A DNA stretch of 35,816 nucleotides from a virus. This document shows, one piece after another, positions 5,522 through 29,262 of this stretch. Both the position numbers and the translations under genes were made by a program. Under the pieces are notes generated by a model. The model saw only the letters and a list, made by a program, of their open reading frames with translations. It was not told the DNA's origin and did no database searches. Each line of letters begins with the position of its first letter. Position 1 is the first letter of the stretch. The stretch covers positions 1 to 35,816 of the IMG/VR virus record IMGVR_UViG_3300032086_004041, one strand, 5' to 3'.

Positions 5522-5556
5522 AATAATTTTACCTTTGTTTAAGAAGACTCAAATTA

Positions 5557-10830: not shown

Positions 10831-10888
10831 AGATCACCATTTTGGTATATTGATTCGTATTCATATATACACCTCAGCGACCTAAAAT

Positions 10889-13507: not shown

Positions 13508-14033
13508 AAATATAAACTCCGAAGTCGTAACACCAAATGTCTTCTATTAAATTAGATATCGTTCGCCAATCACCACCAGCAAATCCTAAGCCTATTTTAG
13601 GAGAATGTATTTGTACTTTATGTTCTTTATCTGAAGATGTTAATTGCTTGCAATAGGCTCTAAGATGAAGCATACATGCTGATAATGCTCCATAGTTAAT
13701 AATCCTTTGAGTAATCTTGTCTTTCTTTCCATTACAAAACATATTGGCTACAATAATTTTAGATTTAGAATTAGAATTCTCATAAGCCACAATTATTTGG
13801 TTGTCACCAAGCTTTTTAGCGTTCAGCAACGAGAGGTTCTCTAGGATTATCGGGTATTGATCGTATAGACTTAAGGAAAATCTAGATTGGTTATTTATGT
13901 CCAACCCGCATACATTGGGAATGACAACGTGGATATCCTGAGTATTAACGACATTCCTAACCTCACTAAAGATATCTTGTCTTAGTGTGGGGAATTTACG
14001 GTATCTATCACTCACCATTTTCCTAGTGGGCAT
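13488..14033 (-). CDS. Macro-domain-like (ADP-ribose-binding or phosphatase) protein
   Basis: 181 aa from MPTRKMVS. This start is preferred for AGGA six bases before the ATG; a Met five codons upstream has no ribosome site, and MVSDRYR five codons further in is also possible. The C-terminal part has YGALSACMLHL, then IHSPKIGLGFAGGDWRTISNLIE, the pattern of phage macro domains, in which a Gly-rich loop binds the ADP-ribose phosphate. The N-terminal strand region FPTLRQDIFSEV fits the start of the fold. Members remove the phosphate of ADP-ribose-1''-phosphate or bind ADP-ribose. The first half is divergent. It overlaps the zinc-ribbon gene by 22 bp. Confidence 0.68.
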   Translation of the reverse strand: MPTRKMVSDRYRKFPTLRQDIFSEVRNVVNTQDIHVVIPNVCGLDINNQSRFSLSLYDQYPIILENLSLLNAKKLGDNQIIVAYENSNSKSKIIVANMFCNGKKDKITQRIINYGALSACMLHLRAYCKQLTSSDKEHKVQIHSPKIGLGFAGGDWRTISNLIEDIWCYDFGVYIYEPTHN

Positions 14034-14242
14034 TTTTGATCCTGCCATGCTAATTTATTGAAAAATTCTTTCTTCTTTGAAATCCCGCACCCACACTCTG
14101 TACATTCTTTATTTTCTTTATCAAAAGACTCACATGCTGAACAGATATTAAATCTGGTCTCTATTTCAAAATTCGATGATTTTGGCATTCCTTTGCTTAT
14201 GTGCCAAAATAATGCTTTAAAAAAGTTCCTAATTCGCCACAT
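14012..14242 (-). CDS. Small zinc-ribbon protein
   Basis: 76 aa. Basic N-terminus (MWRIRNFFKALFWHISKG), then Cys34-x2-Cys37, Cys47-x2-Cys50-x-Cys52 and Cys71 in QKCPLGKW, a likely zinc site. Small proteins with this CSACESF ... CTECGCG pattern are common in phage genomes near enzymes of this kind; the role is unknown, perhaps nucleic-acid or protein binding. It starts 1 bp after the stop of the upstream gene and overlaps the macro-domain gene. Confidence 0.7.
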   Translation of the reverse strand: MWRIRNFFKALFWHISKGMPKSSNFEIETRFNICSACESFDKENKECTECGCGISKKKEFFNKLAWQDQKCPLGKW

Positions 14243-14539: not shown

Positions 14540-15439
14540 TCAGGCAGGTACAATAGGGTATAGGATGCCATAACCTTCATACTTCTTATCGCCTTTATAC
14601 TTAGGGTCTTTTAAGCTCTGTGCTGTTTTCTTAAATAGTTTGATAAATTCGTCTCTAGTTATTCTTCTGCCTAAACCAGAAATAGCTAACGAAGCACAAG
14701 CTGCTGCAAAAGGATTGCTCATACTTGTACCGCTCATTTTAGCATAACGATTTCCAGGCACACAACTAAGAATATCTTTGCCTGGTGTTAGAAAGTCTAG
14801 GCTTTTTCCGCTACAGCTAAAACTAGTCCGATTAAGATTAGAGTCTATTGCTGCGATACTGATAGTATTGTTATATCTAGCAGGAAACATGATATCATTA
14901 CTAGGGCCACTATTTCCAGCAGCACAAAAAATAAGACAACCTTTACCGGCCGCATAATTGATGGCGTTTTGCATATGGCGTGAGGAAGTGGGGCTTCCTA
15001 GACTCATGGTAAGTATGTCAGCATCGTTGTCAGCGGCCCATATGATCCCTTCAACGACGTCTTTTAAATTTCCTGAGCCGTTGTCACCCAAACTTTTAAC
15101 AGGGATGATTTTCGTCCTTGGGGCCACACCCACCATCCCTAAGTTATTATCACTAGCAGCTATTGTTCCTGCTACATGAGTGCCATGAGCATTACCATCT
15201 TGAGGATCAGAACCTTCATTAACAAAATTAAATCCAGCTATTAAATTTTCTTTAAGATCATTATGGTTAAGATCACATCCAGTATCTATGACTGCTACCT
15301 TAACGCCTTCTCCCATGCTATATTTCCAATATTTTTGTATCTCAAATTTAATAATTTCCCAGCCATAAAACTGACCACTATTGGAATCTAATCCAAAAAT
15401 ATCTTCTCTGATATATGGTAATAAGCTAATTTTTTTCAT
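14540..15439 (-). CDS. Subtilisin-like serine protease (S8), intracellular form
   Basis: 299 aa. The full catalytic set is visible: Asp52 in AVIDTGCD, His85 in NAHGTHVAGT, the oxyanion Asn176 in AAGNSG, and Ser239 in MSGTSMSNPFAA. There is no signal peptide and only about 45 residues before the catalytic domain, so it resembles intracellular or short-propeptide subtilisins. In a phage it could trim virion proteins, aid host degradation, or be carried in the particle. It overlaps the 3' end of the B-type gene at 15436-16425 as ATGA, so it is the last gene of a cassette, and the promoter at 14450 starts the next unit. Confidence 0.92.
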   Translation of the reverse strand: MKKISLLPYIREDIFGLDSNSGQFYGWEIIKFEIQKYWKYSMGEGVKVAVIDTGCDLNHNDLKENLIAGFNFVNEGSDPQDGNAHGTHVAGTIAASDNNLGMVGVAPRTKIIPVKSLGDNGSGNLKDVVEGIIWAADNDADILTMSLGSPTSSRHMQNAINYAAGKGCLIFCAAGNSGPSNDIMFPARYNNTISIAAIDSNLNRTSFSCSGKSLDFLTPGKDILSCVPGNRYAKMSGTSMSNPFAAACASLAISGLGRRITRDEFIKLFKKTAQSLKDPKYKGDKKYEGYGILYPIVPA

Positions 15440-16425
15440 AATAATCTATTAATTTGTATATCTGTGTTATCAGTGTAGTACCATTGTTCTAGATGATAAG
15501 ATTCAGTGGGAGTGAAGGGTGGTAAGGGGCACTCTGTTAAAAAGCATTGCGAGTTTACGCCGAATTCAATTGATACAATTCCCATTTTATTTAATGTTGC
15601 TAAATTTGGAATCGCGTATTCCCAACTCCAAGCCCAATTTCTGTAGTTAGCACTTACACCTACCGGATTATATTTATCTATTTGTAAAAAATCAATATTT
15701 AACCTAGTGGGAATTTTTTCTTCATGATCAAGAGTCACACCACCCGATTGTAGTGCTTTTGTATCTATAAGATTAGTGCTAGCACCAAAATTAAAAGTCC
15801 TGCCTTTGATTTCTTCTTCGCTAAATTGACTAAGCAAATATTCTTTTTCTTTTTGCATAAGATTTTTTATTACTATTGAATCAAATGTTATACTTATAGT
15901 TTCATAATGGTAATTTACGACAAATCCATTTTTTATGTAATCAGTATATTTACAGTCGGGGAACCCACTAAATGTCAATGGTCCACCCAAACGCCGTTCG
16001 CAGGTGGCCTGCTTACGCATGGGTGATGCTTTGTTGGTTTTTGGGTTATTGTATCGATTGATAATTTCGCTTGCTGTATTGAGGTCTGGACATACATCGT
16101 CTATTTCAAATGTTGGTGCAGTTTTTCTTTTGTTCCTGTCGTAAGGGTCATAATCATCAGTCCACCACGCCTTTAAATCTAACGATGAATGTTCGTCTAG
16201 GCTGCCATCTTTAGGTATTGTTGTTGTAATATCCTTTTCTCCCCCGACACAAGCACCATTGGTTATAAATTTCGGTTGGCAAGGAAAAGGAGCTGGGCCT
16301 ACAAGGATTCTATGGCCTCTTTCATCTGTTCTATATACTGGAGGACCCCAAAGCACTCTTCCATATAAATCAGAGTTATAATTTACATTTTCTATTTCTT
16401 CACCTACTATCCAGTTACATGCCAT
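15436..16425 (-). CDS. B-type cassette protein, probable virion component
   Basis: 329 aa from MACNWIVGEE. This start overlaps the upstream stop as TAATG and has GGGAG nine bases before it; an in-frame Met nine codons earlier lies inside the previous gene. Residues 1-70 hold VLWGPPVYRTDERGHR and several cysteines, residues 100-170 hold a Cys pair region (CERRLGGPLTFSGFPDC), and the C-terminal half is beta-rich with a Cys near FLTECPLPPF. No membrane helix. It closes the A-C-B set at 17741-15436 and is coupled to the subtilisin gene. Sequence similarity to other B proteins is low. Confidence 0.62.
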   Translation of the reverse strand: MACNWIVGEEIENVNYNSDLYGRVLWGPPVYRTDERGHRILVGPAPFPCQPKFITNGACVGGEKDITTTIPKDGSLDEHSSLDLKAWWTDDYDPYDRNKRKTAPTFEIDDVCPDLNTASEIINRYNNPKTNKASPMRKQATCERRLGGPLTFSGFPDCKYTDYIKNGFVVNYHYETISITFDSIVIKNLMQKEKEYLLSQFSEEEIKGRTFNFGASTNLIDTKALQSGGVTLDHEEKIPTRLNIDFLQIDKYNPVGVSANYRNWAWSWEYAIPNLATLNKMGIVSIEFGVNSQCFLTECPLPPFTPTESYHLEQWYYTDNTDIQINRLL

Positions 16426-17354
16426 TATGTTGTCTCCCAGAATGAACCACATTTTTGTTGACCAGAAATTGGTGGCAATGATTGTTTTTGAACAGTATAG
16501 CTAGCACTACTAAAAGAAATATCGATGTTGCTGTATGATTCAGCAGCTTCGCTGCATATTGTTGGGCTTTGTTCACCGTCGTAGGTAAAAGCGTCAATAA
16601 CATCTGCTGGTAAATCTGCACATGGATTTACTGAAGTACCCCCTACAAAAGTACTATCTAGATAAGTAAAACTCCATGTAAACTCACTCAGCACCGCCGA
16701 AGTGCCGCTGTGGGTAGCTATTTCGTTATAATAATCCGAGCAGGATCCAAAGTTAAGAGGATATCCACCGCTAGCATCAATTGGCCCATCGTTGTCAGGA
16801 AAGCTAACGCCGCCATCCATCTGCAAGCCATTTACTACACATCTTGGACAAACAGGAGCATATGCATCCATATATTCACCTATAATACCAAGCTCCTGGT
16901 CTTCTAATACTGGTATTTCTGGAGCTTTTATATTATCTATTATATCATTAGAAGGTCTAGTAATGGAGTCGACATCTGACCATAAATCTATAGATATTAA
17001 TATATGATTATCACAGTCTGGTTTGCCACAACAAGGCTCATTGGTGCAGCATCCGTTGCATCTATCTTTTTGACAAATACCAGCATCTCTACATGGTTCA
17101 AAATTTCCATCAAAAATTTTGACCAATAATTCAAGCGGATCCAAACCCATGCATCCAATATTTTTAAATATACATCCGTGCAACCTGTCTCTGTCTTCTC
17201 TTCTTTTCAATCTGTCTATTGCGTCATGAACTTTTTCAATAGGATTTTTATCGCTTACTGGAGTTTTCGCAGGGAACCCCTGTGTATTATTGCTATCTGA
17301 TTGTGCTTGTTTAACAGCTTCTATTTGATTTTTTGATAATTGAGGACCAAGCAT
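16425..17354 (-). CDS. Free-standing C-module protein (subfamily C1), Cys-rich
   Basis: 309 aa. It begins MLGPQLSKNQIEAVKQAQSD, similar to the start of the C protein at 27230 (MLDPVIIAAIKASLDSN). Residues 61-114 are very cysteine-rich (CQKDRCNGCC, then CCGKPDC), a possible metal or disulfide cluster. Residues 169-303 are the C module: CPRCVVNG, GGVSFPDNDGPIDASGGYPL, SCSDYYNEIA, SVNPCADLPADV, ICSEAAESY, and a final Cys. The C module is closest to that of 24968-25936. Strong ribosome site (AAGGAGACTATA-ATG). Structural role inferred. Confidence 0.7.
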   Translation of the reverse strand: MLGPQLSKNQIEAVKQAQSDSNNTQGFPAKTPVSDKNPIEKVHDAIDRLKRREDRDRLHGCIFKNIGCMGLDPLELLVKIFDGNFEPCRDAGICQKDRCNGCCTNEPCCGKPDCDNHILISIDLWSDVDSITRPSNDIIDNIKAPEIPVLEDQELGIIGEYMDAYAPVCPRCVVNGLQMDGGVSFPDNDGPIDASGGYPLNFGSCSDYYNEIATHSGTSAVLSEFTWSFTYLDSTFVGGTSVNPCADLPADVIDAFTYDGEQSPTICSEAAESYSNIDISFSSASYTVQKQSLPPISGQQKCGSFWETT

Positions 17355-17372
17355 TATAGTCTCCTTGGAATA

Positions 17373-17741
17373 TTAAGCAAATCTGATTCTGTTTTGCCCT
17401 TGCTTAGTTAAATCATAAAATGTAACTGTGTCGCTAAGTGGCAGATAACTAAGATCTGAAGATAATGGCAAATATGGTATATACCAACGATTTAAAGAGT
17501 AAAAATTAATCATAGGCGCCGTATCTACAAAGTGTGGATGATAGGCGGTTCTTTCTGGTATAGCTAAGCTTGTGGGGTCTGTTTGCATCAATGATCCGAC
17601 ACCCTTTTCTGCTATAGCACGACTTACATCCCGAAGATCATACAATGATTCTTCTGAGTCATAATTCAGATAGCCACCAGGCTTTCGGTTGAAAGAAACA
17701 TTATTTTTAGATTGAGATGATGTTGCTGTGCGTGTACTCAT
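17373..17741 (-). CDS. Type A tag protein, free-standing, probable virion component
   Basis: 122 aa. Starts MSTRTATSSQSKNN, with a polar middle. Residues 65-92 hold AYHPHFVDTAPMINF then WYIPYLPL, the YHP ... YxPY signature shared with 10507 and 27952 and, in shorter form, with the fused proteins at 18711, 22893 and 24968. No cysteines. No ribosome site is visible before the ATG (TAATATAAAAACTAAT), and the upstream stop is 13 bp away, so re-initiation after the preceding gene is possible. It is followed by a C protein and a B protein. Confidence 0.68.
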   Translation of the reverse strand: MSTRTATSSQSKNNVSFNRKPGGYLNYDSEESLYDLRDVSRAIAEKGVGSLMQTDPTSLAIPERTAYHPHFVDTAPMINFYSLNRWYIPYLPLSSDLSYLPLSDTVTFYDLTKQGQNRIRFA

Positions 17742-17754
17742 ATTAGTTTTTATA

Positions 17755-18696
17755 TTAAGTGAATGATTTTAATTCCATTTGTGCTATATTAAATAGTCCA
17801 CTAAGTTCACGATAAACTTGAGGGCCAGTTATACTATCTTTGTGTATATTTGCTATCTCCACACTACCAGACGCACGGTTTGCGCTTCCAGAGAAACTTT
17901 TACCCACTATCATATATGGTAAATAGCCTGATGAAGTCTTCACAACTCCCTGATCAATAGGCGTCATAAGATCAGATACAGAAATAAAATTTATTTGATT
18001 ACCAGACGTATACTCTGCAACTGACATATCTAAGCTAAAGTTATTCATCCTAGCAGCTCTGTTTCGAGTTTTATAATCAATCCACTTCTGTAAATCTTGT
18101 GATGTGCCAAATCTAAAAGCATAAAAATTACCTTCATAGCTAATACTTGTTGAGAACGCATCGTCACCCAACGCAACACCTGTGCGTCGTTCACCAAGTA
18201 CAGGATAGAAACGCATTTTGGTTACCTTGGCTTGCCAAGCTTCTCTATTGCACGATCTTTTTCTAGAAGTAGATGGGCTTGAAACTGTTCCTACAATTTT
18301 TTCACTCCCAGCACTACTACACTTAACACCCATAATTGAATTGCCGCAGACACATGAGAACGGCTGCCCAAACCTAGTGCCACTGCCTATTTTAGTGTAA
18401 CTACATCCCGCATTTTTTTTCTTGCAAGGATGACTTCCTCCCATTATTGGTAGACCACTTCCAGGATCTATGGGTAAACCATCACAATCGATAGGATTGT
18501 CTGGGCAAAATGAATCGCATGTTTTAAAATTTCCGATTCCGACTGCTCGCCACGCTGTTCCTGGACTTGAGATTAAACCTCTCTCAATCCATTGATTACT
18601 AAGAATGGTTTCGTGAGTAGGGCACGTCTCACTTGCTTGATTTTTTTGATTTGTAGATAAAATTTGTTGTATTTCTACCGCTTGGCTTAAACGCAT
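17755..18696 (-). CDS. B-type cassette protein, Cys-rich, probable virion component
   Basis: 313 aa from MRLSQAVEIQQIL, chosen for the strong GAGGTAATT-ATG site; an earlier in-frame Met would overlap the previous gene. Residues about 25-135 hold many cysteines (CDSFCPDNPIDC, CKKKNAGC, CVCG, CSSAG), and the C-terminal 170 residues are beta-rich with FSLDMSVAEY. The layout of a helical start, a Cys-rich third and a beta-rich end is shared with other B proteins while the sequence is not. It directly follows the A-C fusion protein at 18711-19751. Confidence 0.65.
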   Translation of the reverse strand: MRLSQAVEIQQILSTNQKNQASETCPTHETILSNQWIERGLISSPGTAWRAVGIGNFKTCDSFCPDNPIDCDGLPIDPGSGLPIMGGSHPCKKKNAGCSYTKIGSGTRFGQPFSCVCGNSIMGVKCSSAGSEKIVGTVSSPSTSRKRSCNREAWQAKVTKMRFYPVLGERRTGVALGDDAFSTSISYEGNFYAFRFGTSQDLQKWIDYKTRNRAARMNNFSLDMSVAEYTSGNQINFISVSDLMTPIDQGVVKTSSGYLPYMIVGKSFSGSANRASGSVEIANIHKDSITGPQVYRELSGLFNIAQMELKSFT

Positions 18697-18710
18697 AATT
18701 ACCTCACTAG

Positions 18711-19751
18711 CTATATTAATCTGCCAAATAAATCTGAACATGGAGTACCAACGATTGGTACAGTACCACTACTTGAGACAACTACCTCTGTATCAAAACT
18801 ATCAAAATATATATTGATACCTGAATATTGTGTAGCTAGAGCCTCGCACCCTGGTCCACTTAATCCAGCAAAAGATTGCGATGAAGCGTCTGCAAAATCT
18901 TCCGGTACATTTTCACATCCAGAGCCACTAACCACAGTACCGTCTTTGTATGTAATAGTCCAGTCGATAGGATAACCCAACTCCATAGAAGTATCGCTAT
19001 AGCTTGCTAGCGTGTTGGCTATCTCTTGTTCTAACTCTGCACAGCTTGACGCCACTAAAGGGAAGCCTTGTTCATTATTAAGAGGCCCATCTCCACTGGG
19101 AAAACTGACACCAAACCGTAACGAAAAGTCTCCACCTTCTACCACACAGCCAGGACAAGTACCAGCCATAGATCTGTAATAAAAATATTCTACGTTAAGA
19201 TTTTGAGCACTAATATCCTGTGCATTTTGTGTATTAATTTGATTATCAATAAAATCTTGCAATATTTGCTGCATTGCTAGAGATGTGTCAGGTGCATAAT
19301 AATTGTATATAGTATTTGCATCTTCTCTACCAATAAAAAATTCTTTGTTTTGCTTTTTATTGTAAAAATTTTGCGTAAAAGTAGTTACACTCGTATCAGA
19401 AATTTTCTTTAATTCATGAGCAGACAGACTTTCGCCTACGTTTTGAGTATAAAATAGCGAAGGGTCAGGCAAAGGTATGTTGTTTTTGATGCCTAAATAT
19501 GGAACATCTATATTTCTAAATACAGCCGTATTTTGAGGATAGATACTATTAGTGAAAGAGTTATTATTTGTTGCTTTTGTTTTTCGTTGAGATGGCAATA
19601 TAGGATCAGTATTGATACCTACACTCTGATCAGGATTAATTACGGTTTTATCTCTCAGTATCAAATAATAATAATCGTTTTGCTTCTCTTTGATTGTATT
19701 GAATTTTATTGTATTTGTGCTTTCACGGGCTACAGCCGTATATGTACTCAT
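18711..19751 (-). CDS. A-C fusion protein (C subfamily C2), probable virion component
   Basis: 346 aa. Tag MSTYTAVARE; A motif YPQNTAVFRNIDVPYL at 71-86, nearly identical in place and pattern to the 24968 protein (YPVNTAVFLGHRIPYL at 71-86). A shared linker has DFIDN and YFYYRSMAGTCPGC. The C module at about 199-340 has GDFSLRFGVSFPSGDGP, QGFPLVASSC, GYPIDWT, VSGSGCEN and a final TPCSDLF. The C module is closest to that of the free-standing gene at 27230, not to the other fusion. Its start lies 1 bp after the protease stop with a weak ribosome site, so coupling is likely. Confidence 0.72.
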   Translation of the reverse strand: MSTYTAVARESTNTIKFNTIKEKQNDYYYLILRDKTVINPDQSVGINTDPILPSQRKTKATNNNSFTNSIYPQNTAVFRNIDVPYLGIKNNIPLPDPSLFYTQNVGESLSAHELKKISDTSVTTFTQNFYNKKQNKEFFIGREDANTIYNYYAPDTSLAMQQILQDFIDNQINTQNAQDISAQNLNVEYFYYRSMAGTCPGCVVEGGDFSLRFGVSFPSGDGPLNNEQGFPLVASSCAELEQEIANTLASYSDTSMELGYPIDWTITYKDGTVVSGSGCENVPEDFADASSQSFAGLSGPGCEALATQYSGINIYFDSFDTEVVVSSSGTVPIVGTPCSDLFGRLI

Positions 19752-19752
19752 A

Positions 19753-20511
19753 TTACAAGTCTTTCGTTAACTTTTTAATATTCTGTATCCATTCATAATA
19801 TACACTAATCCTAGTGAAAACCCCTTCATCACCATAATCAGAGTTTGCGCTGCCATCTGTCGAAAAAACACGAGAATTAATTCCTGCTAATTTTTGGTCA
19901 ATAAATAAACCACCACCACTATCTCCTGGTGCAATCATGAATTCCAGTGTGGTTTTCGTGCCCTTACCAGTACTGCAAATTAAAAAATCGTCTTCTATTT
20001 TATCAATAATATTAGATCCAGCCCTTTTAGTATTATCAAATGGCCTATTAGCACCTGTCTTTAAAGTACCAGTAAATCCATATCCCGCCATCCCACAAAC
20101 TTTTCCAACCTCATCGTCTGCTGAATATAGCTCAGGATAGAAATCTAGTTTTAATGGTCTTTGTAATTTAGCTAATGCTATATCACTACGCCCAAGACTT
20201 ACATCTTTTTTAAATTCAACCGGTATTACTACAACTCTACAAGGATAAACTTCATTCTTGTAGATTACATGCTGAGTAATTGATCCTTCTACTACATGAG
20301 CGGCTGTTAATACATAATATTCATCTATTACAACACAGGATGCCTTGAACTGACTATTAAGCTTATCAGCATATATTCCGGCTATAGGTAAAACGCACTC
20401 ATATTTTTTACCATATTCTACATACTTACTATCTGGAACACTAGGGTCAATAGTGCCACCCAGACACAAACTAGCAGACAGTAAAAGTATAGTGACGATT
20501 TTTTTAAACAT
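19753..20511 (-). CDS. Secreted trypsin-like serine protease (S1) with signal peptide
   Basis: 252 aa. Residues 1-18 form a signal peptide (MFKK, hydrophobic TILLLSASLCL, then GG); the Cys lacks a proper lipobox, so export rather than lipidation is expected. Catalytic triad: His72 in LTAAHVV, Asp110 in GRSDIALAKL, Ser198 in APGDSGGGLF. Six cysteines in the mature part may form disulfides. The C-terminus (GVFTRISVYYEWIQNI) matches the usual end of S1 domains. It overlaps the 3' end of a B-type gene by 8 bp and so belongs to the virion cassette transcript. A phage gene with an export signal suggests action in the periplasm, at the envelope, or on released virions. Confidence 0.9.
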   Translation of the reverse strand: MFKKIVTILLLSASLCLGGTIDPSVPDSKYVEYGKKYECVLPIAGIYADKLNSQFKASCVVIDEYYVLTAAHVVEGSITQHVIYKNEVYPCRVVVIPVEFKKDVSLGRSDIALAKLQRPLKLDFYPELYSADDEVGKVCGMAGYGFTGTLKTGANRPFDNTKRAGSNIIDKIEDDFLICSTGKGTKTTLEFMIAPGDSGGGLFIDQKLAGINSRVFSTDGSANSDYGDEGVFTRISVYYEWIQNIKKLTKDL

Positions 20512-21709
20512 GGGTTATATTCCTAAAGCCAGCAAGAGTCTTCATTATTATGTGAGGATATTTTTTAATTAGTTTTTCTGGAAGAGTGATGGAATAATCC
20601 TCATCAGCCTTAAAGGTTACTGGAGTCTTTACATATTTTATTTTTACGCCTCCTAAGGCGTTACTCACGGGATGTCTCCACAGCTCAACCGTTTTACCTT
20701 CAGAAAGGTTTTCCAATTTTTCTCCATACCATATCTCTGTTGCTATCCATCCATCTGGAAGGGGGAGCTTTTTAACGTGTGAAACAACGATATTAGCCGC
20801 TTCACTCAACGTTATTTTTGCCATCTCGCCTTCCCAGTTGTTGCTTGCACCAATCAAAGGATTAATATTGGTATTTTCACCAGAGAGTCTAATCAAATCA
20901 CTATAGGTCATTGTGTGCGTTAATTCATAATCAGCCTGAATTTTAGAACTACTATCTATTTGTTCTTCAAATTCAAAGCTGTTATACTTAGATCGCCTAT
21001 CATAATATTTTCCGGTTATAACCTTTACAGCTGTTTCTTTAGCCTCGATTAATCGTAGTGCCGATTTTGTGCCTCTTCTACTTGTAATTCTGTATGGCGT
21101 CTTATACTCCTCGCCGTCGGCAAGAATTACCTTGATAGGCCGCCGAGTCTTGTAATCGCTAAAATTCCCATAAGAAGTTACAGGATCTCCCACCTCCACA
21201 ATAGATTGTATATCGTAACATTGACGGCACATGCAGCCAGGGCTATATGGGTCGACTGGTTGATTATTTTTTTTAAAAACTGTCATCCCAGCACTACATA
21301 CTTGAAAATTTTGAAGTCTTTTAACATCTGCATCCGAAAGACATCTAGTATTCGGACCTATTATTATTTTGCAGTGACATCCTAGTACCGTGCAGGGGGT
21401 TATAAATCCTTGGGTTTTATCTTGTGTAGAAAAACATCTACATACATTTTTAAATACAGCTAAGATTTTATCAGGATTGTTTGAATAAAATCTCATACTT
21501 TTTGCCCATGGCACTAACCCACCCTCAGAGGTTCGATTAGCTTCGATTAGCCGTTTTATCTCGACATCAGTAATCCCTCTGGGTGGCATTTCAGACCCTG
21601 TTTTTACATCTACATATTCACATGCTAGTTCATTCCATCCAGGAATGCAGCTTTCTCCTCTCGGCAGAGAAAAGCCTTTAGTTACCTTGTAATAATTATT
21701 GTATGCCAT
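20504..21709 (-). CDS. B-type cassette protein, tandem paralog 2
   Basis: 401 aa from MAYNNYYKVTKGFS, chosen because AGGAG is six bases before that ATG; a TTG two codons earlier is not needed. Clear paralog of the protein encoded just upstream (21727-22875): both have MAYNNYY, a GSE(M/I)P turn, RRxTxxxxRLIxAKE, VKV-TGKYY-RR, EGEMAKITL and a KTP(V/I)T-KAD strand. The N-terminal third has about 10 cysteines (CRCFS, CTVLGCHCK, CMCRQC), and the rest is beta-rich. Function unknown; its neighbours point to the virion. Confidence 0.7.
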   Translation of the reverse strand: MAYNNYYKVTKGFSLPRGESCIPGWNELACEYVDVKTGSEMPPRGITDVEIKRLIEANRTSEGGLVPWAKSMRFYSNNPDKILAVFKNVCRCFSTQDKTQGFITPCTVLGCHCKIIIGPNTRCLSDADVKRLQNFQVCSAGMTVFKKNNQPVDPYSPGCMCRQCYDIQSIVEVGDPVTSYGNFSDYKTRRPIKVILADGEEYKTPYRITSRRGTKSALRLIEAKETAVKVITGKYYDRRSKYNSFEFEEQIDSSSKIQADYELTHTMTYSDLIRLSGENTNINPLIGASNNWEGEMAKITLSEAANIVVSHVKKLPLPDGWIATEIWYGEKLENLSEGKTVELWRHPVSNALGGVKIKYVKTPVTFKADEDYSITLPEKLIKKYPHIIMKTLAGFRNITHV

Positions 21710-21726
21710 AACCAACTCCTATTGAA

Positions 21727-22875
21727 CTAAGTATTATAGCTGAAGCCTTCAAAACCACAATAAAGACTCGTTAACATATTACGAAATTTACTCATTGCAG
21801 TCGGTGCTTGTAGCTGTATTTGCTGATCAGCCTTAATGGTTATAGGGGTTTTAATGTAATCTATGGTTATTCCACCAAATTTGCTGATAGAAACCCGTAC
21901 GCCACCAGGACCAGTAAAATAAGTTGTTGTTTCTGTTTCAATTTTTGACCACCCATCTGGAAGAAGGCTCTCTGTAGGTGCCATAATCACACTAGTTACT
22001 TCACGTAATGTTATTTTTGCCATCTCGCCTTCCCATGAGTCTGATTCCCCGTTAAGAATATTGAGATTTTCATCCATTGGATTTGTCCAGTTACCTAGCC
22101 TTTCTGGAACACCATTATATTGATCATATATCTCAAAAAGATTTTTAGTTAACATTCTATATTCTAGCCTATAAGTAGTTACAACCGTAGAACTACTATC
22201 TGCTGATGATATAATTTCAAACGAATTATTGATTGGCCGCCTATTATAATATTTTCCAGTATAAACCTTAACCTCTTCCTCTTTAGCGTTGACTAGCTTT
22301 ATACCAGCTGCTGTTCCTGTTCTTCTTATAATTTTGCTTGGAATAAGTTTTCCGCCAATACCTCTATATCTTGTGTACGACGCAACGCTATAATTAGCTA
22401 TAGGTGCGTATTTGCGGTTGTTATCCAACCTGCATACAGTGCATCCACAGCAGCCTTCTTTTACCAACCCAGCTCTTGGTGTTCCCGAGCATATCTCGTT
22501 ATCTTTAAACTTATCAATCTCCCATTCTGACCAGCATTTTGCTTCAGGGCCAGCAATCCCCTTACAACACGCATCACAACTCGACAACACACAACCTCGG
22601 TGTTTACAGAATGTTCTACAAATCTTGTTTTTTGTTATTAGTATACTATCAATGTCATTTGATAAAAACCTAAGATCTATAACGGTTTTCATAAGCGACA
22701 GATACCGATTAGTGATCAATAATCGTCGTATATATGATACAGGGAGTGGTAAGGGAATTTCAGAACCTGGAGCAGCATCTATCCATTCACATGAGTTTAC
22801 ATTATATTCTGCACACGTATACTTATCTCCTTTGCTAAAACCCACTACCTTTTGATAATAGTTATTATAGGCCAT
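21727..22875 (-). CDS. B-type cassette protein, tandem paralog 1
   Basis: 382 aa from MAYNNYYQKVVGFS; a GGAG lies eight bases before this ATG and an upstream TTG is rejected. The N-terminal third is very rich in cysteines (CRTFCKHRGC, CDACCKG, CCGCTVC), spaced differently from its paralog at 20504-21709. The second half is alignable to that paralog over the VKVYTGKYYNRR, SWEGEMAKITL, LPDGW and YIKTPITIKAD motifs. The gene pair sits 11-18 bp apart, so a tandem duplication followed by divergence of the Cys-rich part is the simplest reading. Confidence 0.7.
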   Translation of the reverse strand: MAYNNYYQKVVGFSKGDKYTCAEYNVNSCEWIDAAPGSEIPLPLPVSYIRRLLITNRYLSLMKTVIDLRFLSNDIDSILITKNKICRTFCKHRGCVLSSCDACCKGIAGPEAKCWSEWEIDKFKDNEICSGTPRAGLVKEGCCGCTVCRLDNNRKYAPIANYSVASYTRYRGIGGKLIPSKIIRRTGTAAGIKLVNAKEEEVKVYTGKYYNRRPINNSFEIISSADSSSTVVTTYRLEYRMLTKNLFEIYDQYNGVPERLGNWTNPMDENLNILNGESDSWEGEMAKITLREVTSVIMAPTESLLPDGWSKIETETTTYFTGPGGVRVSISKFGGITIDYIKTPITIKADQQIQLQAPTAMSKFRNMLTSLYCGFEGFSYNT

Positions 22876-22892
22876 CGCCAATCTCCATTAAG

Positions 22893-23888
22893 TTAAGTAA
22901 TATGATTAAATTCAACACTACAAGGAACATAACCATCAGGAATTCCTGTTACTGGATAAATGCTCATACCATTTGCTGGAATCCAACCATAACAGCCAGA
23001 GGTTGCAGGATCGTTGTTGTAAGCATTACATTCATTTTCGCTATCGTAAGTATCGCCAACCATCCTAGCTGAAAGACTCCAAAGATCACCTACCATATCT
23101 GTTACATAGGTTGGAATAACGTGATTAGAGCATGTACCGAACACACCGCTAGCTATTATACCGCATGTTTCGCCACTTACATAGTGCGTCCAACCGTCAG
23201 GAACACCAGACGGATCGCAACTATAGCTCGTGTTTGCCGACCATTCCCACTGATATACCGCACAATATCCACAACTATCTGCATCTGGCGCAGCATATCT
23301 ACTCAATGTTAAAGCTAAAGCAGAAACCTCGTCTGTATTTGAAATTTCAAAGTCATTATTTTGTACCACAAAATCTGGAATAGTTTCAAAAAACGCCAGT
23401 TCTTCTTCAGTAAGAAATCCTATAGGACTATTAAAAAGAGGATTTTTAATGTGTTTTTTATTTGTGATTGGTCTAGTTTGTAAATTGTTATAGAATGTAA
23501 AACTATTTTGTTTGCTGATACTTTTACTGTTAGTCAATAAATTGTTAGTATTATAGTCTATGTTCTCAATATTATCTGTGTAAAAGTTATCAGAAGTTTC
23601 AACAGTGCCGTCAGCAGGAGAATTTTCTACGCTAATAGGCAGATATGGAACATATATTCCATACTTAATACTGCTATTAGTATAGTCTCCAATAGTTTGG
23701 AAAAAACTATTTGGTTGAATGTTACCGTAATGCCTAGCGGCCTGGTTTGCATCTAAAGCAGTACCTTCAGTATTATAAAAATTTACTTTAGATCTAGTAT
23801 CCAGATTAGGATATGGATCTGGATATACTTTAGCTATATTAATAGTTGGTACTGTTTTTTTATTTGGATTTATTTTATATGTTGACAT
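22893..23888 (-). CDS. A-type fusion with a different Cys-rich C-terminal domain
   Basis: 331 aa. Tag MSTYKINPNKKTVPTINIA and a motif IKYGIYVPYLPISVE near 73-87 place it in the A family. Its linker differs from the two A-C fusions. The C-terminal 130 residues are Cys-, Trp- and Tyr-rich (DSCGYCAVYQWEWS, then SCDPSGVPDGWTHY, GETCG, ECNAYNNDP, GCYGW, VPCSVEF) and do not match the C module. So this is an A head joined to a third kind of tail. The ribosome site AAGGA is good. It precedes the tandem B pair and follows the B gene at 23937. Confidence 0.65.
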   Translation of the reverse strand: MSTYKINPNKKTVPTINIAKVYPDPYPNLDTRSKVNFYNTEGTALDANQAARHYGNIQPNSFFQTIGDYTNSSIKYGIYVPYLPISVENSPADGTVETSDNFYTDNIENIDYNTNNLLTNSKSISKQNSFTFYNNLQTRPITNKKHIKNPLFNSPIGFLTEEELAFFETIPDFVVQNNDFEISNTDEVSALALTLSRYAAPDADSCGYCAVYQWEWSANTSYSCDPSGVPDGWTHYVSGETCGIIASGVFGTCSNHVIPTYVTDMVGDLWSLSARMVGDTYDSENECNAYNNDPATSGCYGWIPANGMSIYPVTGIPDGYVPCSVEFNHIT

Positions 23889-23936
23889 AGCTATCCTTAA
23901 TTTTGTGGAGGAATACTTGTATATGTGTTCATGTTA

Positions 23937-24971
23937 TTACCCTAAAGTATATTTATATCTAGTGCGACTATTACGACGCTGTGAACCATTCCATCCGGCC
24001 CATTTTTTACTTCCATAAACTACACTATCAGTCCAAGCCTCAAATTCTATTACCATAGTTTTCTCTGAACCAATACTCTTCTCAATAATCAGCTCATTTG
24101 ACTTGTAAATCGGATAGCATGTTCGAAGTTCTCCGTAAAGTCCCCATTGGACACATACCGTACCCACAATCGTATAATTTGCATTATTAGAATCAATTCT
24201 AGCTTCTGTTACAGAATATGTGGTTTTAGTCCCAGATTTATTCTTATTTGTCTTTATCTTCATGGCAGAATATACTCCGCCTTTTGGTCGAAAGCTATAT
24301 GTCCCGGTCTTCGAACGAACTCTTTCGCCAAGAGTATAGTGCTCGAGTGTGCCAGTTATCTCATGAGATTGAGTGGTTACTGATATAGTCTCTATCTCTG
24401 CATCCGCAGGAAGACCTCCTAATATAGGACTTAGTCTTTTATATTCGATTTGCCCGGTGAATTTAACTCTATTAGGAGGCCTTAAACTTGCCCCCCATCC
24501 GCCACCAATTTCACCAGTAGCCGCCAATAGTTCTTCACCAGGAATAGGGATTATGCCCTGATAAAATGGGACATGGTTAATGACTTTATTAGTCAAATTT
24601 CTTATACGCAGACTTTTGTTCTGCAACGAGTTTCTAAAGGTTAGCTCGTCCCTACAGCCGGTTGCACAATACTTTATGTCAGGGTCTGTGCTACACGTCA
24701 CTAAGGACTTACATCCTTTTCCTGTTTCTAGTTCATTATATGCGCTACTAAACGATGAATCGCCTAGGTTGTTTAATTGCTTAATACTGGGGGAGTAAGT
24801 TGGTAAATAACGTTCAATACCAACCGGCTTTGAAGGACATTTCTTCTTATTGTATTGGCTTCCCTCTTCTTCACCTGAATACCATGCATTCTCTACCCAT
24901 GACAGATAACTTGTGCGGTTACCTGCTCCATTTGGCCACCCACACCAACCACCCCCACTAAATACGCTCAT
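23937..24971 (-). CDS. B-type cassette protein, probable virion component
   Basis: 344 aa from MSVFSGGGWCGWPNG. This start overlaps the stop of the preceding gene as ATGA and has GGAG about eight bases before it; an earlier Met in the same frame lies inside that gene. The N-terminal 130 residues hold several cysteines (CGW, KKCPSK, CKSLVTCSTD, CATGC), and the rest is long beta-rich sequence ending in a basic strand (RRNSRTRYKYTLG). No membrane helix. It follows the A-C fusion at 24968-25936, repeating the A-C then B order. Confidence 0.65.
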   Translation of the reverse strand: MSVFSGGGWCGWPNGAGNRTSYLSWVENAWYSGEEEGSQYNKKKCPSKPVGIERYLPTYSPSIKQLNNLGDSSFSSAYNELETGKGCKSLVTCSTDPDIKYCATGCRDELTFRNSLQNKSLRIRNLTNKVINHVPFYQGIIPIPGEELLAATGEIGGGWGASLRPPNRVKFTGQIEYKRLSPILGGLPADAEIETISVTTQSHEITGTLEHYTLGERVRSKTGTYSFRPKGGVYSAMKIKTNKNKSGTKTTYSVTEARIDSNNANYTIVGTVCVQWGLYGELRTCYPIYKSNELIIEKSIGSEKTMVIEFEAWTDSVVYGSKKWAGWNGSQRRNSRTRYKYTLG

Positions 24972-25936
24972 ACATATTCTCCAAATAAATCGGAACACGG
25001 TGTACCCACAGGAGAACTTGGCGGTGTTCCTGTGTAAATAATTTCTGTATCGTACATATTCATAGATATATCTATATTAGGGTATGTTTCTGCTGCTAAA
25101 TCACAGATTCTTTCATTAGCTCCAACATAACTAAAAGCAGCAGTAACATCTGAAGGTAGTTCATCACATGGATTTAACGAAACGCCGCTAATACTGCTTT
25201 CGTCAAGATAAGTAAAAGTCCATGTCAATTCATCCATCACCGCTGATGTACCAGCTTGTCTAGCTATTTCTAAATCATAATCTGCACATGATGTAAGATT
25301 AAGAGGATATCCACCGCTACCATCAATTGGCCCATCACCGCTTGGATAGCTAACACCACCAATCATTTCAAGACCATTTACTTCACACGCAGGACAAGTA
25401 CCATTCATAGACCTATAATAAAAATATCTGATATCTGGTTCTGCCAATGTCTGAAACGATTGTGCTGACTGTGTTTCTATATCTGGTAGATTGTCTATAA
25501 AATCTTCAAATGCTATAGAAAGACCAGCAAGAACTGAAGAGTCAGGAAATTCTGCAACTCTTTCATACTGTTTAGATTCAAAATATTTATGGTAGAAGGT
25601 AGGCTTATATCCATCATTCACTGGCAACGTAGAATATATTTCGGATTCATATGGATAAACAGTGCTAGCTCCAATAGGCAAATAAGGAATTCTATGCCCT
25701 AAAAATACAGCAGTATTGACTGGATAATTGGTATTAGCGACCATATCATTAGTTTTAGTCAAACTCTCAACATGCGTAACATCATTAGCAAAAATAGGCG
25801 TATTAACTGTTGAGGAAAGTTCGTTTGCTAGAGTGATATCTCTACCTAATGTAGTCGTAGGAGGTATATATTCTCTCTTATTTTTATTAAAAGATATTCT
25901 GCTAATAGCTTTTGGATTTATGTTATATGTCGACAT
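24968..25936 (-). CDS. A-C fusion protein (C subfamily C1), probable virion component
   Basis: 322 aa. Tag MSTYNINPKA; A motif YPVNTAVFLGHRIPYL at 71-86. The linker has AFEDFIDNL and YFYYRSMNGTCPAC, shared with 18711. The C module at 181-316 has GGVSYPSGDGPIDGSGGYPL, SCADYDLEIA, SLNPCDELPSDV, ICDLAAETY, NIDIS and TPCSDLF, with six cysteines. It is closest to the free-standing C protein at 16425, not to the other fusion. Ribosome site weak (GAAGTAAAGT-ATG). A 47 bp AT-rich spacer precedes it. Confidence 0.72.
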   Translation of the reverse strand: MSTYNINPKAISRISFNKNKREYIPPTTTLGRDITLANELSSTVNTPIFANDVTHVESLTKTNDMVANTNYPVNTAVFLGHRIPYLPIGASTVYPYESEIYSTLPVNDGYKPTFYHKYFESKQYERVAEFPDSSVLAGLSIAFEDFIDNLPDIETQSAQSFQTLAEPDIRYFYYRSMNGTCPACEVNGLEMIGGVSYPSGDGPIDGSGGYPLNLTSCADYDLEIARQAGTSAVMDELTWTFTYLDESSISGVSLNPCDELPSDVTAAFSYVGANERICDLAAETYPNIDISMNMYDTEIIYTGTPPSSPVGTPCSDLFGEYV

Positions 25937-25983
25937 ACTTTACTTCTTTTTTTACGACGAGTATGCATGTGTGGTTAGTATAT

Positions 25984-27210
25984 CTATACACCACTTACAT
26001 ATTTATTAAATATCTCTTGATCATGCGGAAATCCTTGGAATTTGCCTGGACCTGAGATAAAGTTATAGGTATTAGTTTCTAAATTATCGGTTATTTCAGT
26101 GCTGTCGTTGTAATAATATTTTCTTGTCAAACCATCTTTTAATCCTAATTCTGCAGCGGTTATGTTGTGAACTACTTCTTGATAAATATATACTGTTAAA
26201 CTAGATATAGCTCTTGTTTCTCTTAAAATTTCAATAGGATGTATCAATAAAGTAAAACCATTTGTAAATGGATGTTTTGACAAATCTTGATATTCAATAC
26301 GTTCAGCTGTAATATTTTTTAAATTCTCTTGAAACAATGGTAATACTGCATAAGTATAACTATTATCAGGAAGTACACCCATACCTCCTAAAAACCTACT
26401 GCTTCTAACAGCTAAAAATTTAGCTTCTGGCCAATTGGCTAGTTTTAGTTTTGGATTCTTTATATTATTATTTAGCCATTTCCACTTCAAATTAATCAAT
26501 TCATAATATACAGGATCTATATTTGCTACAACATAAACTTTTCTGATCAACCAAGCAGGATTAGGCTTAGCTGGGAGCAGTGGAGTGCATTCTTGTATAG
26601 GTTTTTCTTGATGATTAAGTATCGCTCCCCACCCAGGTATGGTTAATCTTAAACCTTTATTTAAATGATTTTTGTCTATTGTAATCTTCAATCTACCAAG
26701 ATCAACTGGTGAATTTATTGTTAGTCCTAATTCATTGCTTACTTTTCTTTTACGATACTCAAATTTTTTTGTAATACTCGTCAAAAAATTATCATAATCA
26801 TTCAAGCTAGCATTAATATTTGCTAAAGATTTTGATATAGGATAATATTCTTTTTCTTGAATAGATATTTTTGTTTCGAATGCTTTATTATGACCATTTT
26901 TATCTTTTATGTTAAATGGATCTGTGTCTATAAATAAACCGTAGGATGAATAAAAATTTCTCGGAATTTTGTTTTCATCACCCATAAATGGATCTTCATA
27001 AAGGTTCCATACTCTCTCGGGAAATAGTTCGCCATCAGGACCTGTACTCCATTGGTAACACGCCCCATTCCTATTTTCGTATGTTGGTCTGTATGATGGT
27101 CCTCCTTCTTTTAAGTCAGCAGGAGTAGGGTCTGAAGGGTCAGTTACGCCCGGTTCTTTTCTGTATACAGAATATATTGTAGACATTGGATCTGCTGGAG
27201 ATATACTCAT
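25984..27210 (-). CDS. B-type cassette protein, probable virion component
   Basis: 408 aa. Start MSISPADPMSTIYSVYRKEPG; the inner MSTIYS could instead be the true start, because it recalls the MST tag, and neither has a strong ribosome site. Few cysteines compared with other B proteins. The middle is helical and basic (KSLANINASL ... KKFEYRKRKVS), then there are beta-rich stretches and a Tyr-rich C-terminus (RKYYYND, NTYNFISG). No membrane helix or signal. It closes the first A-C-B set (28269-25984). Function unknown. Confidence 0.62.
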   Translation of the reverse strand: MSISPADPMSTIYSVYRKEPGVTDPSDPTPADLKEGGPSYRPTYENRNGACYQWSTGPDGELFPERVWNLYEDPFMGDENKIPRNFYSSYGLFIDTDPFNIKDKNGHNKAFETKISIQEKEYYPISKSLANINASLNDYDNFLTSITKKFEYRKRKVSNELGLTINSPVDLGRLKITIDKNHLNKGLRLTIPGWGAILNHQEKPIQECTPLLPAKPNPAWLIRKVYVVANIDPVYYELINLKWKWLNNNIKNPKLKLANWPEAKFLAVRSSRFLGGMGVLPDNSYTYAVLPLFQENLKNITAERIEYQDLSKHPFTNGFTLLIHPIEILRETRAISSLTVYIYQEVVHNITAAELGLKDGLTRKYYYNDSTEITDNLETNTYNFISGPGKFQGFPHDQEIFNKYVSGV

Positions 27211-27229
27211 TTTATTATATACTTTCTTA

Positions 27230-27949
27230 TTATGACTCTAATCGATAACCACCGTCTTGACAATATACATATGGATCGAAATATGACTCTGGAGTTCCTG
27301 TAGACACAATAGCAGTATTCTGTATCCAAGAAAGAGTAAATCTATCAGTGCTTACGCAATCTGATTGACTTAGACCTTTTACTTCCGAGTACATCGTTGC
27401 AATATCTTCTGGTAAATTTTCGCATCCGCTACCGCTAACTGATTCACCGTCTGCATATTGGAAAGTCCAGTCGATAGGATAACCGATAATTATTTCTGCT
27501 CCTTCAATCAGTGGCTCCATACTAATATATTCGTTAAGTTCTTCACAACTAGTTGCAATTAGAGGGTATCCCTGAGTGTTACCTTCTGGCCCATCGCCGC
27601 TTGGATAAGTTATGCCGCCTCTTAATGAAAAATCTCCACCAACAAGTTGACACGAGCCGCATGAAGGTATATCTGGAGCTATTAATAAATAAACAGCTTC
27701 TCCCGGTACATTCGGCTTTGCTAATATGAATCGATCTTCAAAAATATCTGAATCTATATCGCTAGACAAAGCAGGTGCTGCATTCGATGAACTGGTATTA
27801 ATATTAGATAATATTATGTCCCAATCTATATCACTTACTATTGGAATCCAAGTATCATAATCATTTTTATTTTTCGAAGGAACTGTAGCAACCTTTTTAT
27901 TGCTATCAAGTGAAGCTTTAATTGCAGCTATGATTACTGGATCTAACAT
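27230..27949 (-). CDS. Free-standing C-module protein (subfamily C2)
   Basis: 239 aa. Starts MLDPVIIAAIKASLDSN, like the other free C protein at 16425. A polar linker is followed by the C module from Cys97: CGSCQLVGGDFSLRGG, TYPSGDGP, QGYPLIATSC, GYPIDWTFQY, VSGSGCEN, and a late Cys. Best visible match is to the C half of the 18711 fusion (GDFSLR, GYPIDWT and SGSGCEN are shared). It lies 2 bp after the A protein at 27952, with a purine-rich leader (GAAGAAGAAGAATAATT) that also encodes the Glu run at the end of that protein. Structural role inferred. Confidence 0.7.
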   Translation of the reverse strand: MLDPVIIAAIKASLDSNKKVATVPSKNKNDYDTWIPIVSDIDWDIILSNINTSSSNAAPALSSDIDSDIFEDRFILAKPNVPGEAVYLLIAPDIPSCGSCQLVGGDFSLRGGITYPSGDGPEGNTQGYPLIATSCEELNEYISMEPLIEGAEIIIGYPIDWTFQYADGESVSGSGCENLPEDIATMYSEVKGLSQSDCVSTDRFTLSWIQNTAIVSTGTPESYFDPYVYCQDGGYRLES

Positions 27950-27951
27950 AA

Positions 27952-28269
27952 TTATTCTTCTTCTTCTTCTTTTATTATTCTGTAAAACGAATAAATAGAA
28001 ACAAATGGTTTATTATTAAGATTACTACCAGAAGAAATGTATGGATGATATAGATTATTTCTTATGAAGGTATTCATCAATAGAATTGATACTAAATAGT
28101 GTGGATGATATGCGGTTGCTGGTCTTAGTGGCTTGTTGTAGTTCATTCTAGTAGTCGTTTGCCGACTGCTTTCATACTGATTTCTATAATCCCTACCTTG
28201 ATTATTTACATTAAACAAAGTATTTTGCTGATTACTTTTTTTTGTATCATTAATCTTATATGTTGCCAT
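27952..28269 (-). CDS. Type A tag protein, free-standing, with poly-Glu tail
   Basis: 105 aa from MATYKINDTKKSN, matching the family start; an ATG four codons upstream also exists. Polar middle, then RPATAYHPHYLVSILLMNTF and NNLYHPYISSG, the YHP ... YxPY signature. It ends IIKEEEEE. No cysteine. No convincing ribosome site (TTTTAGATGGTATATAAT-ATG). First gene of the long virion cassette run, after a 40 bp gap from the HNH gene. A nearby TATAAT is too close to the ATG to serve as a -10 for a leadered transcript. Confidence 0.66.
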   Translation of the reverse strand: MATYKINDTKKSNQQNTLFNVNNQGRDYRNQYESSRQTTTRMNYNKPLRPATAYHPHYLVSILLMNTFIRNNLYHPYISSGSNLNNKPFVSIYSFYRIIKEEEEE

Positions 28270-28309
28270 ATTATATACCATCTAAAATAAAAAGATAACC
28301 ACTTTGCTT

Positions 28310-28636
28310 TTATACACCATACTTTTTAGGTCTATTTTTTATATTTTGCAGATACCACGCAGCATCATTGACTATATTCACATTCCAGCTTTTATAGTCC
28401 ATAAAATGGCCAAATACAAAGTGGCAATATTTATCACAGAGCGTGATGAGATTATCTGGGTCTAGCTCCCTAGCTGGCTCTAGGTGTACCGGGACTATAT
28501 GATGTACTTCCGGTTTCTTACAAGACCCACAAGCCATACAACATGGCTGTTTTTCTAGATGTTTTTTTCTTAGTGTAGGCCATTTACCTGACCTAGTAGC
28601 ATATCTTAACTCTTTTCCGAAGGGCCAGAACGCCAA
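28310..28636 (-). CDS. HNH endonuclease
   Basis: 108 aa with a TTG start supported by GAGG seven bases upstream; no other in-frame start lies before the domain. Zinc ligands Cys33-x2-Cys36 and later Cys67 and Cys71, with His45-His46 in VHHIVPV, then Asn62 in DPDNLITLC and a late His, form the HNH core. Free-standing HNH proteins in phages act as homing nucleases or in genome packaging. This one is far from any recognisable terminase and overlaps ThyX by 31 bp, so a homing or DNA-processing role is more likely. Confidence 0.85.
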   Translation of the reverse strand: MAFWPFGKELRYATRSGKWPTLRKKHLEKQPCCMACGSCKKPEVHHIVPVHLEPARELDPDNLITLCDKYCHFVFGHFMDYKSWNVNIVNDAAWYLQNIKNRPKKYGV

Positions 28637-29262
28637 TTTAGTGCCTCAGATATAGTAGGAAATTGTTCACTAAATATATCTTTACACCGATTTGCAATAT
28701 CCATGTGTTCTTTTTGGGTTCCGTTAGCTGATCTAAGCTGTATGTAGTGCATCCAGGAACGCACTGAGCCGCTCATATATAAACGAGTAGGTGTAGCCAA
28801 GGGTAAAATAAAACGGGCGCACTCCTTAGCTATTCCGTCCTGTAGCATCTGATCATAAAGACCCTTTGCTTTGGCAAAATGTTCTCTAATCAAAACATTA
28901 TACTTATTACGCATTTCATCAGATATATCATCAATGCTATTTTGTCTATTCTTATCGTCCTGTCTGCGTAATTCAAAAACAGGTATAGCCTCTGCTAAAA
29001 AGCTGGCATCAGCATACCTCTGACTAAACTCCTGAAATGTAAAACTACGATGTCTAAGAATTTGAGCAGCAATACCTCTTGTGGTATTAATCTCTATCGT
29101 TAAAAAAGCTTGCTCAAAAATACTCCAGTGATTATGATCAATACAATACTTCAGTAGTCTTGCATAGCTTTCATTGTTTTGATTATTCGGATTAGATACT
29201 CTAGCACAATACGCTATGTTTTTTTCAGCGTCTGGAGTTACACTAATTAAATTGACCGTCAT
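28606..29262 (-). CDS. thyX: Flavin-dependent thymidylate synthase ThyX
   Basis: 218 aa. Signature RHR-x7-S with R70-H71-R72 and Ser80 in RHRSFTFQEFSQRY. HNHWSIFEQAFLTIEI matches the His-x-Ser-x-Phe-Glu strand, and ARFILPLATPTRLYMSGSVR followed by WMHYIQLRS matches the C-terminal substrate and FAD region. It makes dTMP from dUMP with methylene-tetrahydrofolate, FAD and NADPH, supplying thymidine for phage DNA synthesis. It overlaps the upstream unknown gene as ATGA and the HNH gene by 31 bp. Confidence 0.93.
   Translation of the reverse strand: MTVNLISVTPDAEKNIAYCARVSNPNNQNNESYARLLKYCIDHNHWSIFEQAFLTIEINTTRGIAAQILRHRSFTFQEFSQRYADASFLAEAIPVFELRRQDDKNRQNSIDDISDEMRNKYNVLIREHFAKAKGLYDQMLQDGIAKECARFILPLATPTRLYMSGSVRSWMHYIQLRSANGTQKEHMDIANRCKDIFSEQFPTISEALNWRSGPSEKS

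Follow-up and report, generated by a model that had tools for sequence, protein, structure and literature searches.

The virus record IMGVR_UViG_3300032086_004041, analysed here over its entire 35,816 bases (the window), raises the question of what a phage would build from a small set of genes that recurs again and again in the same order. An initial interpretation made from the letters alone (the sequence-only reading) had described this set as cassettes of a gene A with an MST or MAT start and a YxPY motif, a gene C with a six-cysteine module and a long gene B, and had taken the products for paralogous, interchangeable and probably virion-associated proteins, perhaps fibres or adhesins. The answer favoured here, at a probability of roughly 60%, is an apparatus of several units, late-expressed and attached to the virion, for receptor binding or adhesion; A or an A-C fusion would act in it as the anchor or adaptor, with B forming the variable tip. 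Five cassettes are present at one locus (locus III) and two further loci (I and II) bring the number to up to seven, with all genes concerned on the minus strand.

The recurring order rests on A and C, which by sequence comparison are to be regarded as true paralogues. Five copies of A and a weaker sixth have been distinguished. The A proteins at 27952-28269, 17373-17741 and 10507-10830 and the N-termini of those at 24968-25936 and 18711-19751 recover one another in leave-one-out searches with hidden Markov models (HMM), at expectation values (E) of 1e-9 to 2e-4. The sixth, at 22893-23888, shares the MSTYKINP start (a DNA match to the start at 25936, E 6e-4) and a YVPY motif, and together with its orthologue from a related phage it shares the A region; alone it fails the leave-one-out HMM test. 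Of the proposed YxPY motif, PY is found in 6/6 copies and the strict form in 4/6 only. C occurs in four window copies (all-against-all phmmer, E down to 1e-45), and the six-cysteine description is borne out: an alignment of six sequences of the first C type (C1) contains exactly six invariant cysteines (C181, C184, C217, C257, C278 and C314 of the 24968-25936 protein), and fused A-C1 proteins, two from the window and two from the relative L113 described below, have exactly six cysteines each (4/4). Paralogy does not extend to B. In the window, only the B proteins at 20504-21709 and 21727-22875 match each other in the all-against-all phmmer comparison, and profile comparison, which ruled out a single B family, separates about five mutually unrelated types when L113 is included. 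The grouping of type I (B-I) follows position and short motifs, pairwise scores having given no confirmation. No credible match to the cassette proteins was found in Pfam, PHROGs, NCBIfam, PADLOC or PDB, nor by tblastn of the 24968-25936 and 2590-4596 products against annotated phages, nor in a C-domain scan of bacterial and archaeal genomes. On viral contigs, A, C and B profiles alone recovered only a near-identical contig (G001, below), more relatives being obtained after core-gene bait.

Read in the direction of transcription, locus III lies behind an HNH gene (28636-28310). Cassette 1 comprises A (27952-28269; its ATG at 28269 gives MATYK..., and a longer open reading frame, ORF, begins at 28281), C1 (27230-27949) and a type V B protein (25984-27210) for which no relative was detectable. 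Cassette 2 is formed by an A-C1 fusion (24968-25936) and a B-I gene (23937-24971) overlapping it by 4 nt. In cassette 3, the gene at 22893-23888, earlier described as A fused to another tail, carries its A-like N-terminus on a second C type (C2) and is followed by two genes of type II (B-II), at 21727-22875 (ATG at 22875) and 20504-21709 (ATG at 21709). Next comes a trypsin-like protease gene (19753-20511), a conserved neighbour also found in array-less relatives and not a cassette part, by which the array from 15436 to 28269 is interrupted. Cassette 4 consists of an A-C1 fusion (18711-19751) and a B-I gene assigned by position and short motifs (17755-18696), and cassette 5 of A (17373-17741), a C1 domain behind an N-terminal region of its own (16425-17354) and a type III B protein (B-III, 15436-16425), after which an S8 protease gene (14540) follows. 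A role of these two adjacent proteases in the service of the cassettes was considered and rejected, since relatives that have no array retain both.

The further A-B set suggested at 10830-9185 (locus II) is upheld, its A gene (10507-10830) being recovered in the leave-one-out HMM and syntenic with A genes in the relatives L113, L114 and G013/G032; it overlaps by 4 nt a B gene of type IV by position (9185-10510). The set suggested at 5521-2590 (locus I) is analogous in arrangement. Its short A-like protein (5186-5521) has a MAT start, no YxPY, no detectable homology to A and a homologue in G013 (E 9e-4); it is followed by a possible C-like protein (4578-5186), with a short weak match around GFPLTGQTCDEM (probability 22%, E 1e-3), and a large protein in the B position (2590-4596). 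The latter contains a long hydrophobic stretch (about residues 137-190; window 4027-4188) and is otherwise coiled-coil-like, and by eye no hydrophobic stretch is seen in its positional counterpart in G013.

The array is not a chance arrangement, since an independent phage, IMGVR_UViG_3300040856_003394 (L113), recovered with the S8 protease as bait (S8 77% identical), carries the same array; the sequence-only reading had called for such a search in related contigs. Its order is HNH; A-C2, B-II; trypsin-like; A, C2, B-III; A-C1, B-I; A-C1, B-I; S8. Module types and flanking genes are thus shared with the window, with one cassette fewer, a single B-II and an altered arrangement around the trypsin-like gene. 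Orthologues in L113 have been assigned to the A-C2 gene at 22893-23888 (L113 853-1836, E 3e-48), the A gene of cassette 5 (L113 3759-4145) and its B-III gene (L113 4972-6015, E 4e-9). For the gene at 16425-17354, the N-terminal halves are orthologous between the two phages (33% identity, E 2e-10) and are followed by a C1 domain in the window but by a C2-like one in L113, with C-terminal halves that do not align with each other; the C2 assignment comes from a short match to the 22893-23888 product (28 columns, E 5e-4) and a profile match, and a swap between C1 and C2 appears to have occurred. At locus II, L114 has a tandem A-B-A-B arrangement, and G013 and G032, indistinguishable there and counted as one phage (as are G029 and G016), have a single A-B pair. 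Copy number, order, tandem sets and the exchange of C domains on orthologous N-termini all support the proposed interchangeable units. No A gene was found in G015, G026, G029, G016 or G033, despite common backbone genes; in G013 and G026 the S8, trypsin-like and HNH genes stand side by side. Two independent phages provide the known locus-III arrays, the window phage being represented by fragments only, and ORFs in relatives were assigned by a simple rule that takes the longest first.

Sequence divergence also separates the components, A being conserved between close relatives and B fast-evolving or replaced. Between the window and L113, identity is 42-87% for core genes, 28-37% for A, 31-43% for C-bearing proteins and 23-27% for B. 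Between G013 and L114, the ratio of nonsynonymous to synonymous substitution rates (dN/dS) is 0.02-0.2 for most core genes, 0.075 for locus-II A and 0.61 for locus-II B, by Nei-Gojobori counts without a site model and with a few small core genes also high. In the same pair, the locus-I B protein is 32% identical, its cassette partners 77-82% and the core genes beyond mostly more than 90%, as expected from allele replacement.

Evidence on expression was obtained from the upstream regions. Among 7-mers counted before genes of the phage clade, GGTGTAT showed the strongest enrichment (50 regions, with 3.6 expected) and lies mainly 30-69 nt before start codons, a position in which rearranged control motifs differ. 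Within head-tail modules it stands ahead of the gene that separates terminase from capsid (3 genomes), which by position and sequence is probably the portal gene, the next head gene (2 genomes) and a tail-tube-like gene, named on the same grounds (3 genomes). A late-type box was defined as an GGTGTATA-type sequence 25-75 nt before the start, relaxed to [AG]GTGTA[AT]. It is found before 8 of the 14 cassette-first (A) genes, none of the 17 C and B genes and 6 of 500 inside-gene controls. The boxed genes are those at 27952, 24968, 18711, 10507 and 5186 in the window and at 853, 3759 and 6071 in L113, and the window boxes, all on the minus strand, precede cassette 1 (GGTGTATAAA, 28309-28318), cassette 2 (GGTGTATAGA, 25983-25992), cassette 4 (AGTGTATATT, 19797-19806, within the protease gene), locus II (GGTGTATATA, 10864-10873) and locus I (AGTGTATAAT, 5556-5565). 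The Fisher p-values for boxed A genes (4e-6 against other genes, 4e-4 against C and B genes), like that for the absence of the GGTGTATA-type box from genes with early-type promoters (0/72, p 0.002), are optimistic, because attention was first drawn to the motif by its occurrence before A genes, its definition being relaxed afterwards, and because the counted genes include relatives of one another; the contrast with C and B also arises in part from the little intergenic room before those genes. Firmer are the enrichment of the box over all genes and the contrast itself. Early-type TTGACA-spacer-TATACT promoters characterise DNA ligase, rIIA, a UV-endonuclease-like gene and others, and generic sigma-70 and terminator scans were uninformative. 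Across the clade two promoter classes can be described, the late-type GGTGTATA and an early type in which a spacer containing a CGATA box separates TTGACAA from TATACT; sites of these classes are listed in the window at 1938-1947, 2571-2580, 6281-6290 and 28679-28688. Gaps between cassettes are often 45-55 nt and those inside cassettes -8 to 21 nt. From the distribution of boxes and gaps, the cassettes look like separate transcription units, late in timing to judge by the box, and the six A genes without a box may be read through.

Taken in this way, each A-(C)-B cassette would be a late-expressed unit yielding one arm of a multi-arm apparatus for host recognition or adhesion on the virion. 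The common anchor or adaptor would be A, alone or as part of an A-C fusion; C would be a six-cysteine connector domain joined to A, probably disulfide-stabilised; and B, encoded by the following gene and produced in coupled amounts, would be the variable tip meeting the host surface. Adsorption would be broadened or shifted as cassettes are duplicated and reordered, trade C domains and have their B replaced. Contact between A and C is suggested by the A-C fusions, and joint production of B with its partner through coupled translation by the 4-nt and 1-nt gene overlaps. We infer the late timing, virion location, A-C-B contact and receptor binding in this scheme from indirect signs that fit it: the box is common to cassettes and head or tail genes, no signal peptides were seen by eye in the cassette proteins, B evolves fast or is replaced, the locus-II B proteins have long Pro-rich linkers, and an Mtd_N-domain tail protein is encoded near the array (1-1560).

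Several results weigh against such an apparatus. Six of the 14 A genes have no late-type box, and some boxed genes (trypsin-like, HNH, thioredoxin-like) need not encode virion proteins; the cassettes also sit outside the head-tail module of relatives. Family profile searches detected no fibre, spike, lectin or gp10-like domain in the cassette proteins. Structure prediction, which the sequence-only reading had advised, was informative for C alone. An AlphaFold2 model of the A-C1 protein at 24968-25936, built on eight aligned rows, is for the most part confident in the C1 domain (about residues 180-300; 51 residues with a predicted local distance difference test score, pLDDT, above 90; mixed strands and helices), and its A part falls below pLDDT 50. 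The B-II model is unusable (pLDDT 31). A Foldseek search of the A-C1 model against PDB and BFVD gave no match at E <1e-3, a search handicapped by the low-confidence A half.

Some of these points would be accommodated if the cassettes encoded late, non-virion, host-directed multi-subunit factors that act in or on the infected cell, for envelope remodelling, superinfection exclusion or counter-defence, with B as variable effector. Such factors would account for the late-type boxes ahead of genes that need not encode virion proteins and for the position of the cassettes among accessory genes (proteases, glycosyltransferases) outside the head-tail module, and an intracellular arms race is also compatible with high dN/dS. 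No enzyme, toxin or defence family is matched, however, and the richness of C and B proteins in cysteine, like the Pro-rich linkers in B of locus II, would be more typical of exposed structural proteins, which leaves this explanation unlikely, though ahead of the others. Less probable still is virion decoration without receptor specificity, in which A, C and B would coat the capsid or tail for stability or weak particle adhesion and B would be dispensable and loosely constrained. The late-type boxes suit it, and so does the dispensability of the array in the clade, which follows from its absence in relatives with the same backbone; relaxed constraint alone, however, poorly explains the near-complete replacement of one B protein between well-conserved genes or the exchange of domains behind conserved N-termini. 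Genes for anti-phage defence or toxins, or selfish accessory genes, that move as cassettes and have no virion role would be modular and mobile in the same outline but are very improbable, as no reverse transcriptase occurs in the contigs searched and no integrase or toxin family is recognised among window proteins, A is under strong purifying selection, and PADLOC gave a single background-level match (E 0.05), by which a known defence system was rejected.

As a receptor-binding or adhesion apparatus, the array would belong with the multi-unit adsorption apparatuses. The long tail fibres of Klebsiella phage RaK2 comprise nine proteins, gp526-gp534, joined through gp10-like domains (PMC10253068). 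The fibres of RaK2 and phiK64-1 (Alcyoneusvirus) and the branched fibres of CBA120 resemble the array in having several co-encoded units with conserved attachment parts and diverse tips, receptor binding being putative in the present case. In RaK2 and CBA120, anchor and tip share one polypeptide with T4 gp10-like XD branching and depolymerase domains, whereas A, C and B are mostly separate genes and many cassettes have their own late-type box. Since the parts are split into genes and neither gp10-like XD domains (Pfam and PHROGs, at profile level only) nor beta-helix depolymerase domains (Pfam, PHROGs and NCBIfam) were detected in any A, C or B protein, the array has not been classed with the RaK2 type. 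Modular receptor-binding proteins of Klebsiella phages have an N-terminal anchor and a C-terminal specificity module (PMC8262889). They likewise combine a conserved attachment part with an exchangeable tip, within one protein each, whereas here the tip is a separate gene after A or A-C and the connector domain is exchanged too.

Lambda Stf-Tfa and T4 gp37-gp38 are pairs of a tail fibre and a fibre-assembly chaperone, and are similar in that a small gene accompanies each variable large gene. The array differs in that its small gene precedes the large one and is in some cassettes fused with C; nor can it be placed in a known chaperone family, no match of weight to Tfa or gp38 having been found for A proteins in Pfam, PHROGs or NCBIfam. 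Bordetella phage BPP-1 combines Mtd with a diversity-generating retroelement, and the Mtd_N-domain protein near the array recalls it; variation in the array rather resembles shuffling and replacement of whole modules. A retroelement was rejected, as the reverse transcriptase family PF00078 is absent from G001, G033, G032, G026 and G029 (fragments, not whole genomes) and present in 3 control genomes. It is tentatively proposed that the array represents a new split, combinatorial adhesin architecture of a planctomycete phage clade, with a common A, exchangeable C1 and C2, about five unrelated B families and separate late cassettes.

Bases 21,919-57,734 of the 58,620 bp contig IMGVR_UViG_3300031841_004380 (G001), read as their reverse complement, match the window at 99.994% identity. 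With the rIIA gene as bait, 38 loci were retrieved on related contigs of up to 195 kb, which identifies the window as a fragment of a large tailed phage. In the relative G033 (IMGVR_UViG_3300050343_000285), terminase (PHROG 2) and capsid genes mark a separate head-tail module, the capsid protein distantly matching the Bacillus phage G major head protein (21% identity, E 6e-6). The window's rIIB homologue (34376-35215) has its best match among annotated phage records in the 595-kb uncultured phage LR756511 (43% identity). Next to the position that the array occupies in the window, G033 has giant ORFs of 2607 and 1669 aa (116074-130812) containing long repeats rich in Thr and Pro. They are flanked by the homologue of window 14012-14242 and by the S8 protease gene, and may represent a different sort of adhesin in one shared hot spot. 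Upstream of its terminase gene (18327-25223), G033 encodes several successive Cys-rich proteins, of which some show EGF-like spacing; the first gene is preceded at 51 nt by a GGTGTAT box, and its product carries the N-terminal sequence NNIRFN, similar to A proteins. G015 (IMGVR_UViG_3300030451_005792) has an insert of about 14 kb (67820-81450) between homologues of window 10889-11953 and 12810-13343, with genes resembling sugar-nucleotide, methyltransferase and glycan genes.

Genes of the DUF1559 and DUF1501 families are both present in G001, and DUF1559 occurs in 7/8 contigs of the clade against 0/14 control genomes. This family is apparently restricted to Planctomycetes (PMC10632474), with 74 planctomycete-specific copies in Rhodopirellula baltica (PMC2754498), and the host is therefore most likely a planctomycete. 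A DUF1559 scan for the host genome yielded no planctomycete, its matches being only to the generic N-terminal pilin region. The phage gene has an N-terminal methylation (pilin-like) motif (G001 16241-17209; also in G033, G015, G013, G026, G016 and G029) and is often near rIIA in the clade, a host hallmark family thus being a phage core gene, which deserves separate study. A limited literature search found no dedicated study of phages of Planctomycetes, and to our knowledge the phage receptors of these bacteria are uncharacterised.

The array seems to be a previously undescribed kit of exchangeable host-recognition parts. The late-promoter signature GGTGTATA can help to separate early from late genes across the clade. 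If the favoured reading is true, this phage would have an adsorption system of separately encoded, exchangeable parts without detectable homology to known tail fibres or spikes, and a source of anchor and tip parts that could be tested on Planctomycetes.

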